DNA from: Halodesulfurarchaeum formicicum | GTDB lineage: Archaea; Halobacteriota; Halobacteria; Halobacteriales; Halobacteriaceae | Assembly (NCBI RefSeq): GCF_001886955.1 | Contig: NZ_CP016804.1 | Coordinates: 248,001-312,000, forward strand | Direction: 5' to 3' | Length of the DNA stretch: 64,000 nt | Shown: positions 2,772 to 3,568 of the stretch, one piece after another | Layout: the number at the start of each line of letters is the position of its first letter | How positions within the stretch are numbered: position 1 is the first letter of the stretch | Translations under genes and position numbers: made by a program | The notes under the pieces: model-generated | What the model saw: only the letters and a program-made list of their open reading frames with translations | The model's database searches: none | What the model was told of the DNA's origin: nothing

Positions 2772-3009
2772 TCACGATTCGATCTTCTTGATGATCTTGT
2801 CAGCCTGCTCGCGGGCCTTCTCTTCGCCGACGTTCTTTTCAATCATGACCGACTGAACCACCCAATCATCAGTACCCTCACGCTTGCCCATTCGAACCTC
2901 ACTTCCTTCCGAAACGGAATCGGAGGCGCGGTCCGCCCAGTCGGGTGTCCGGATTTTGTCGAACTGATAAGGCGGTGTCGTCGTTCGAATGTAGAACGAC
3001 TGCAGAAGG
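2772..3009 (-). pseudogene. Headless ORF ending beside a tRNA-derived repeat
   Basis: On the minus strand an open frame reads SFYIRTTTPPYQFDKIRTP, then a tryptophan/acid-rich stretch, then VVQSVMIEKNV and a lysine-rich end, stopping at 2772. Upstream, the frame contains no ATG, GTG or TTG before an in-frame TGA at about 3050, so the 5' end appears lost where it meets a tRNA-Phe-derived repeat. An internal ATG at 2891 could still give a 39-residue peptide. The family was not recognised. The coherent, well-composed translation suggests a formerly real gene, perhaps from an integrated element. Confidence 0.4.
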
Positions 3010-3010
3010 C

Positions 3011-3089
3011 ATGCCGCCTCCCGGATTGTGAACCATTGGAAACCTCACTGCGTTCGGTTTCCAGGATTCAAATCGCGGTCGGGAGCATT
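3011..3089. repeat. Imperfect palindrome unit A with tRNA-Phe 3'-end arm
   Basis: The left arm at 3013-3034 matches the tRNA-Phe 3' end except that GGATTTGAACC has become GGATTGTGAACC. The unit continues with ATTGGAAACC, a short loop, then GGTTTCCAGGATTCAAATC, and ends in GCGGTCG..GCATT. Folded, the arms pair through the tRNA-derived T-arm sequence. It is closely similar in plan to the unit at 3359-3448. Confidence 0.65.
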
Positions 3090-3118
3090 TTCACTGCTCA
3101 CGTTGTTCGCAGGAAAAT

Positions 3119-3223
3119 GTCGCCTCCCGGATTTGAACTCTCGAAAGATTGGCTTGCGCTCGCCCTTTGACTTCCCGCTCGCTCCGCTCGCGGGAACGGG
3201 GACAGTTCGATCTTCAGTCAAGT
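3119..3223 (-). pseudogene. Interrupted tRNA-Phe fragment
   Basis: 3119-3138 matches the 3' end and T-arm of the intact tRNA-Phe with one change. 3195-3223 matches its variable and anticodon region, including the GAA anticodon context (GGGGACAG then TTCGATCTTCAGTC), with two changes. About 55 bases containing a CCCGC/GCGGG hairpin separate the pieces inside the T-loop. This looks like a decayed tRNA copy split by a hairpin insertion. Confidence 0.6.
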
Positions 3224-3358
3224 ATCAGCATACCGCGACGAGCGAAGCGAGTCGCGGTTTCACCGAACGCGAACGCAGGGAGCGTTCGGAATGTTTTTCC
3301 CCAAGTTTTTGCGAGGAGTGGTTCGCGTTCGGCGAACCCGACGAAGTAAAAAGTGGAA

Positions 3359-3448
3359 TGCCGCCTCCCGGATTGTGAACCACGCCCGAGAACCTGCTCG
3401 CTTCGCTCGCAGAACCTCGGTCTGGTTCAAATCGCGGTCGTTGGCATT
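3359..3448. repeat. Imperfect palindrome unit C with tRNA-Phe 3'-end arm
   Basis: The left arm at 3360-3381 carries the same GGATTGTGAACC variant of the tRNA-Phe 3' end as the unit at 3011. A loop rich in CTCGCTTCGCTCG follows, and the return arm is CTGGTTCAAATCGCGGTCG ending in TTGGCAT, so the outer ends read ATGCC...GGCAT. The shared variant in two units suggests duplication of one palindrome rather than two independent copies of the tRNA. Confidence 0.65.
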
Positions 3449-3495
3449 CTGAATTCTGCCGACTCGCTCCGCTCGTCGGGCAGAATCACAGAAGT

Positions 3496-3568
3496 GCCGC
3501 CTCCCGGATTTGAACCGGGGACAGCTCGATCTTCAGTCGAGTGCTCTCCCAGTCTGAGCTAAGGCGGC
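3496..3568 (-). tRNA. tRNA-Phe (GAA)
   Basis: On the minus strand a complete 73-base cloverleaf can be drawn: acceptor GCCGCCT/AGGCGGC, D-stem GCTC/GAGC, anticodon stem CTCGA/TCGAG with loop CTGAAGA (anticodon GAA), variable CTGTC, and T-stem CCCGG/CCGGG with loop TTCAAAT. CCA is not encoded. Partial copies of its 3' half lie downstream, a common site for element integration. Confidence 0.96.

Follow-up and report, generated by a model that had tools for sequence, protein, structure and literature searches.

Beside the intact tRNA-Phe gene of the window, by which we mean the whole 64-kb stretch of DNA analysed here, lies a chain of hairpins that carries pieces of the tRNA 3′ end. An earlier note on this DNA had described the chain and offered three readings of it: remains of repeated integrations, a novel family of palindromic repeats with tRNA sequence as their starting point, or a structured transcript. 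Which of these accounts for the array is the question that this locus raises. The window belongs to a genome consisting of a single contig of 2.09 Mb, whose relatives include Natrialbaceae.

A hairpin array downstream of tRNA-Phe

By ARAGORN and Rfam, tRNA-Phe is the sole tRNA of the window. It lies on the minus strand at 3494–3568, so that, as the gene is transcribed, the hairpin chain from 3490 to 3005 follows downstream of its 3′ end. The chain is evident from the sequence, from repeat analysis and from folding. On the tRNA strand, region 3000–3490 folds with −224.6 kcal/mol, far more stably than shuffled sequence (z −7.5; 0 of 100 shuffles as stable), and the opposite strand folds more weakly (z −4.0). 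An Rfam search of the window returned tRNA alone above the cut-off, and matches with E up to 1 added one more, which is below the gathering score of its family. An open reading frame at 3028–3378, which crosses the palindromes, was not counted as a gene. The features of the array are collected in Table 1.

Table 1. tRNA-Phe and the elements of its hairpin array, in window coordinates and in order of distance from the tRNA
Feature	Position	Strand	Basis
tRNA-Phe (GAA)	3494–3568	−	ARAGORN; Rfam RF00005, 65.5 bits
Hairpin A, unit 1, between tRNA end and inverted arm	3451–3487	−	sequence, folds
Inverted arm L, unit 1 (inverted T-loop/T-stem), CGACCGCGATTTGAACC on minus strand	3424–3440 (about)	−	sequence, unit statistics
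Type-1 core hairpin B, AGACCGAGGTTCTGCGAGCGAAGCGAGCAGGTTCTCGGGCGT on minus strand	3382–3423	−	alignment, pair counts, covariance model
tRNA-Phe 3′ end copy 1, altered T-loop GTTCACAATC	3359–3380	−	sequence, repeat analysis
Further hairpin block, CCACTTTTTACTTCG...GTCGCGGTATGCTG	3227–3357	−	copies elsewhere in own genome
Partial tRNA-Phe copy (3′ half, anticodon arm onward), hairpins set into T-stem	3139–3223	−	repeat family D4
tRNA-Phe 3′ end copy 2, GTTCAAATCCGGGAGGCGACA	3118–3138	−	2 mismatches of 22
Hairpin A, unit 3, CATTTTCCTGCGAACAACGTGAGCAGTGAAAATG	3086–3117	−	sequence, comparison of loci
Inverted arm L, unit 3, CTCCCGACCGCGATTTGAATC	3065–3085 (about)	−	sequence
Type-2 core hairpin B, unit 3, CTGGAAACCGAACGCAGTGAGGTTTCCAATG	3034–3064	−	sequence, folds
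tRNA-Phe 3′ end copy 3, altered T-loop	3012–3033	−	sequence, repeat analysis

The template of the copies is positions 53–73 of tRNA-Phe (window 3495–3515). All three copies of the tRNA 3′ end that the earlier note had counted are there, the first and last of them carrying the same altered motif, GGATTGTGAACC, and its inverted 'return arms' are located at the two arms L. Its proposal that one palindrome had been duplicated has to be given up: the altered-motif units have common arms, but they are not one duplicated palindrome because their core hairpins differ. The unit next to the tRNA is matched by a covariance model of the type-1 core, R1, at 3363–3440. The type-2 core of unit 3 has relatives behind tRNA-Ser and tRNA-Pro in the same genome, and the hairpin A of that unit is also found behind tRNA-Phe in other genera.

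The hairpin block at 3227–3357 has two copies in its own genome, at 101887–102008 and 1266377–1266446, both in tRNA loci (L053 and L054) and downstream of tRNA-Pro and tRNA-Ala. It contains ACTTTTTACTTCG and AAAACTTGGGGAAAAA and is found again in many haloarchaeal genomes. In the partial tRNA-Phe copy, repeat family D4 matches 3197–3223 to 3516–3542 at 93%. Hairpin tips of the form GAGCGNAGCGAG occur at 3171–3190, 3239–3251, 3397–3409 and 3456–3475; their loop is GAA-type and they contain tandem G-A mismatches. Such tips were seen in either orientation; inside tRNA units, the purine-rich form is mostly on the tRNA strand.

Unit architecture and occurrence in haloarchaea

Comparison of many loci gave one order of elements: in the tRNA direction, the tRNA end is followed by hairpin A, then by the inverted arm L and core hairpin B, and the unit finishes with another tRNA-end copy. 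Arm L reverse-complements the T-loop together with part of the T-stem, and hairpin B is closed by pairing of L with the next tRNA-end copy. Copies are spaced 89–200 bases apart. Across 132 copies, identity to the tRNA rises from 0.25 at position 51 through 0.81 at 52 to 1.0 at 53; at the other end it is still 0.92 at position 73 and drops to 0.58 at +1. From these sharp edges at 53 and at the discriminator base, the copied block comprises the T-loop, the 3′ T-stem strand, the 3′ acceptor strand and N73, without CCA. A second unit class, which occurs at L052 and L122 (tRNA-Arg CCG) and at L091 and L113 (tRNA-Arg CCU), has the order GTAGTCCC, hairpin, GGGACTCCC and acceptor end, and copies the 3′ T-stem and acceptor strand only, without the T-loop.

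The copies follow the adjacent tRNA whatever its type, with Ser ends behind tRNA-Ser and Lys ends behind tRNA-Lys, and in species whose tRNA-Phe T-stem reads CGGGG instead of CCGGG the copies have CGGGG too. At up to 3 mismatches, a 22-base tRNA-end copy was found downstream of 47 of 84 tRNA genes and upstream of 2 of 84, at loci partly chosen by hit, which shows that such copies are not chance matches. Arm L, whose statistics are drawn from 93–115 units, is also related to its own tRNA. An inverted T-loop lies within L in 78 of 93 units, where shuffled spacers give an expectation of 5.6%. The T-stem part of L fits its own tRNA better than other tRNAs (3.32 versus 2.50 of 5 positions, p = 9e-9), although this and the other p-values given here overstate significance, since related units share descent and are not independent. 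The acceptor part of L fits its own tRNA no better than others in 93 units.

For an array-blind census, tRNA genes in three haloarchaeal genomes besides the window's own were picked by tRNA score only, or mostly so in sister species G002. Copies lay behind 46 of 100 tRNA genes in four haloarchaeal genomes and behind 0 of 37 in three genomes from other orders of the phylum (Fisher, nominal p = 1.8e-8). The window's genome has downstream copies at 21 of its 41 tRNA genes with usable flanks, with a maximum of five at tRNA-Ser (UGA), and the three further haloarchaeal genomes have them at 11/23, 8/17 and 6/19 tRNA genes. Sequence search found the type-1 core in 84 of 194 genomes of the order. Model R1, built from 50 copies of that core, matched in 165 of 243 genomes of the order, spread over 58 of 73 genera; in a 393-genome sample of the phylum it gave 69 positives, every one in the haloarchaeal order. 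Array-bearing examples include Halovivax sp. KZCA124, Natribaculum breve, Natronococcus amylolyticus and Natrinema thermotolerans.

These cores are tied to tRNA genes. Each of 67 type-1 cores follows a tRNA gene of its own strand, with one orientation throughout; for 65 of them the gene is within 1.5 kb, and about a dozen amino-acid types are represented. The 48 loci fetched with model R1 were not reoriented, so that minus-strand matches pair with minus-strand tRNAs, and 47 of them lie behind a same-strand tRNA gene. The exception, L172 (G087:C1 near 338534), has tRNA-Val end copies and hairpins but no tRNA gene within the stretch examined, and is perhaps an orphan array. The search of relatives that the earlier note had called for thus found the unit behind many tRNA types, and the idea of a novel palindromic repeat family starting from tRNA sequence is well supported by those tRNA types, by presence in most sampled haloarchaeal genera and by the match of each copy to its own tRNA 3′ end.

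The nearest known kind is the rtT repeat. rtT repeats (Rfam family RtT) lie downstream of tyrT in Escherichia coli, within the tRNA transcript, and each unit has a copy of the tRNA 3′ end. The haloarchaeal arrays have in common with them tandem tRNA 3′ end copies downstream of a tRNA gene. However, rtT is one bacterial locus with one tRNA type, and is not known to have an inverted T-loop arm or a common core hairpin family; the RtT model of Rfam had no match in the window at E up to 1. The open-access literature on haloarchaeal tRNA-linked repeats, on tRNA trailers and on rtT gave no account of the family, and an earlier one may exist elsewhere. As far as that literature shows, we rate the family as categorically new.

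Pairing conserved on the tRNA strand

The third reading, a structured transcript, gains indirect support from covariation and strand-specific wobble. Type-1 cores have compensatory, both-sided changes at 7 pairs (34 cells), which 0 of 500 shuffles reach, and two fixed G.U pairs either side of a U.U. Where arm L is compared with the copy on the tRNA strand, changes that make G.U are commoner than those that make A.C (51/143 versus 6/232, and 32/327 versus 9/306), and without position 53 the bias is still 36/358 versus 15/538 (nominal p = 6e-6). The tRNA strand also folds more stably than its complement in regions A and B after shuffle correction. Strand-specific wobble of this kind is not given by a mutation bias common to both strands; selection on RNA can give it, and the same signal could come from same-strand single-stranded DNA. 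We therefore take the conserved pairing to point to structure at the level of RNA, or of single-stranded DNA of the same strand.

A symmetric search over all stems gave 161 G.T against 148 A.C mismatches, with no wobble excess, so selection at the RNA level can be seen clearly in hairpin B and its closing arm alone. T-runs show no clear enrichment after the array that would mark a transcript end.

Proposed recombination at the tRNA 3′ end and the origin of the arrays

tRNA-Phe is a true integrase target in relatives of the window's genome, which gives the integration reading part of its due. An element of about 10 kb in L057 (G046:C1:1778000-1792000) and one of about 5 kb in L058 (G007:C4:163000-173000), each with a tyrosine integrase that we take to resemble the SNJ2 type, sit exactly between tRNA-Phe and its hairpin array. 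Their attachment block is about 52–73 of the tRNA, about the extent of the array copies. The other part of that reading failed: the ends of the elements in G046, G007 and G006 have no match to hairpins A or B, so the units are not remains of those elements; nor are the conserved core hairpins something that decay left behind. The idea that units are internally deleted integrase elements was rejected on the same difference of ends. Units could plausibly have entered, multiplied and exchanged cores by recombination in the T-loop-to-end block.

Cores behave as modules. There are at least five core types, and one type can occur behind different tRNAs within a genome and across families. At tRNA-Ala (GGC), two sister species of one genus have hairpin A and L in common and differ in the core, a core swap. 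Several haloarchaeal families have the altered T-loop in their type-1 units behind tRNA-Phe, so it is old or transferred. Unit number and core type both differ between sister species, and several of these differences adjoin the tRNA (Arg CCG, Val GAC, Met, Gly UCC and Arg CCU), though not all do. At tRNA-Arg (CCG), the flank follows the tRNA directly in G002; in the window's genome it follows the distal tRNA-end copy, with units between. This is a filled versus an empty site; recombination between copies, with a precise loss of the units, would account for it equally well. A two-unit block is duplicated in tandem at tRNA-Ser, and tRNA-Lys of another species has three near-identical units.

Our preferred reading, held with moderate confidence and drawn from sequence comparison, is that the array belongs, as the member for tRNA-Phe, to a family of tRNA-tail repeats in haloarchaea: a structured 3′ tail of the pre-tRNA, spread by recombination in the T-loop-to-end region. 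The array would be transcribed as a 3′ extension of the pre-tRNA. Unpaired, L would compete with tRNA folding, being complementary to the tRNA's own T-arm; the downstream tRNA-end copy would lock L into hairpin B, leaving the tRNA to fold and its normal 3′ end to be cut, with the tail as a chain of stable hairpins. That copy and arm are kept together, and that their pairing is conserved on the tRNA strand, would be explained because the copy holds L within hairpin B. Units would multiply by recombination between the 21-base copies, giving block duplication and core exchange, and by new insertions at the 3′ end of the tRNA, within the region that tyrosine integrases use, while gene conversion would keep the copies equal to the tRNA.

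A bolder form of this proposal, which we consider doubtful, makes the tails genome-wide tRNA-linked RNA switches: L would pair with its own T-arm or with the downstream copy, and for about half of haloarchaeal tRNA species the tails would control how the tRNA folds, how its 3′ end is processed or how much of it is supplied, and would spread as tRNA-specific cassettes. Flanks on the 3′ side of tRNA genes are usually seen as short trailers or integration hot spots. Here, about half of the examined haloarchaeal tRNA genes have conserved hairpin tails from their own 3′ ends, and such tails were absent from the three genomes sampled in other orders. This raises the questions of how precursors of archaeal tRNAs terminate and undergo processing, whether tails regulate tRNA supply, how very small repeats move between tRNA types, and where some of the partial tRNA ends in archaeal genomes, often taken for viral scars, come from.

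Rather than a tail of the transcript, each unit may be a site-specific DNA cassette, a tiny non-coding element that a tyrosine recombinase placed at the 3′ end of the tRNA, with the T-loop-to-end block as its attachment site, perhaps on folded single strands, and hairpins A and B as recognition structures; we regard this as possible but unlikely. It would suit the direct repeats, which are the block that tyrosine integrases use, as well as the integrase elements in G046 and G007 with their similar attachment blocks, the fixed orientation of units and several of the sister-species differences, which lie at the tRNA-proximal end. Integron integrases act on folded single strands, and attC arms lie around a GTT site. 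The tRNA repeat starts G53-TT, L and the repeat together have the form ATTTGAAC...GTTCAAAT, reminiscent of attC arms, and both kinds of array are tandem imperfect palindromes in fixed orientation. The tRNA-tail units differ from integron arrays, however, in having no cassette genes or known integron integrase and in an arm sequence that is the tRNA T-loop. Further difficulties are that a unit of 89–200 bp is very small for a circular substrate, that the ends of the integrase elements are unlike hairpins A or B, and that a carried tRNA end must match each of many tRNA types, yet one core is seen at many of them. The analysis turned up no dedicated recombinase; tyrosine recombinases are present in the genomes, none of them linked to arrays.

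A Cas1/casposase-like or other integrase that inserts an A-L-B module where the tRNA ends, with duplication of 21 bases, so that the array is a fossil of repeated insertions, strikes us as improbable. It would account for a repeat of fixed length with sharp edges for all tRNA types, and for a repeat always equal to its own tRNA without being carried there; casposons are known to target tRNA genes (PMC6977970, PMC6614799), and in casposon and CRISPR arrays, too, a target repeat is duplicated between inserted pieces. Yet the inserts here are common hairpin modules and not unique spacers, the modules are without terminal inverted repeats, and L is adapted to the T-stem of its tRNA. Cas1 was undetected in 6 of 12 array-bearing genomes, sister species G002 among them; on this feature the casposon reading of the units fails, though Cas1 may have been active in the past.

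That successive ordinary integrative elements at tRNA-Phe decayed to tRNA ends and random palindromes is very improbable. Archaeal tyrosine integrases of the SNJ2, pNOB8 and pT26-2 types leave attachment-site scars at tRNA 3′ ends (PMC8371274), and such scars resemble the arrays in their direct repeats of the tRNA 3′ end, with a block of about 52–73; partial tRNA ends are the usual scar, and tRNA-Phe is a real integration site in relatives. The haloarchaeal units, in contrast, are short and non-coding; they combine an inverted arm with paired cores that are conserved across families and tRNA types, in a fixed architecture with maintained pairing, and they affect about half of all tRNA genes. 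The conserved cores refute decay of elements as a sufficient explanation.

The least credible source is chance insertion beside tRNA genes of IS200/IS605-derived non-coding elements: haloarchaea often have near-terminal palindromes and repeats that lack a transposase, but the PATEs and SMRs described in Haloquadratum have no target duplication or tRNA-derived ends and prefer to insert in other mobile elements (PMC3119063), whereas the tRNA-tail units are bounded by tRNA-end copies and all 67 type-1 cores are behind tRNA genes. Y1 transposase genes are present in nine of the 12 array-bearing genomes and missing from three; neither Cas1 nor Y1 transposase is present in all of these genomes, and both were rejected as a general motor. 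Membership of the units in PATE/SMR, rtT or integrase scars was likewise rejected, as each fails at least one tested feature.

Some loci depart from the common pattern of gain and loss. At tRNA-Ala (CGC) of G002 (L117), the tRNA-end copy of a unit in common with the window's genome is interrupted by about 70 bases of hairpin sequence. At tRNA-Phe of G076 (L031), a palindromic insert of about 80 bases, ATAGTAACAATTGAAACG...CTACTATAG, lies inside the type-1 closing stem and is possibly a small mobile repeat. A tRNA-Gly array in G141 (L068) is repeated about 2.2 kb away with two open reading frames between, and in Natribaculum breve (G194, L067) tRNA and array are duplicated whole in tandem, giving two tRNA-Asp genes 1.3 kb apart.
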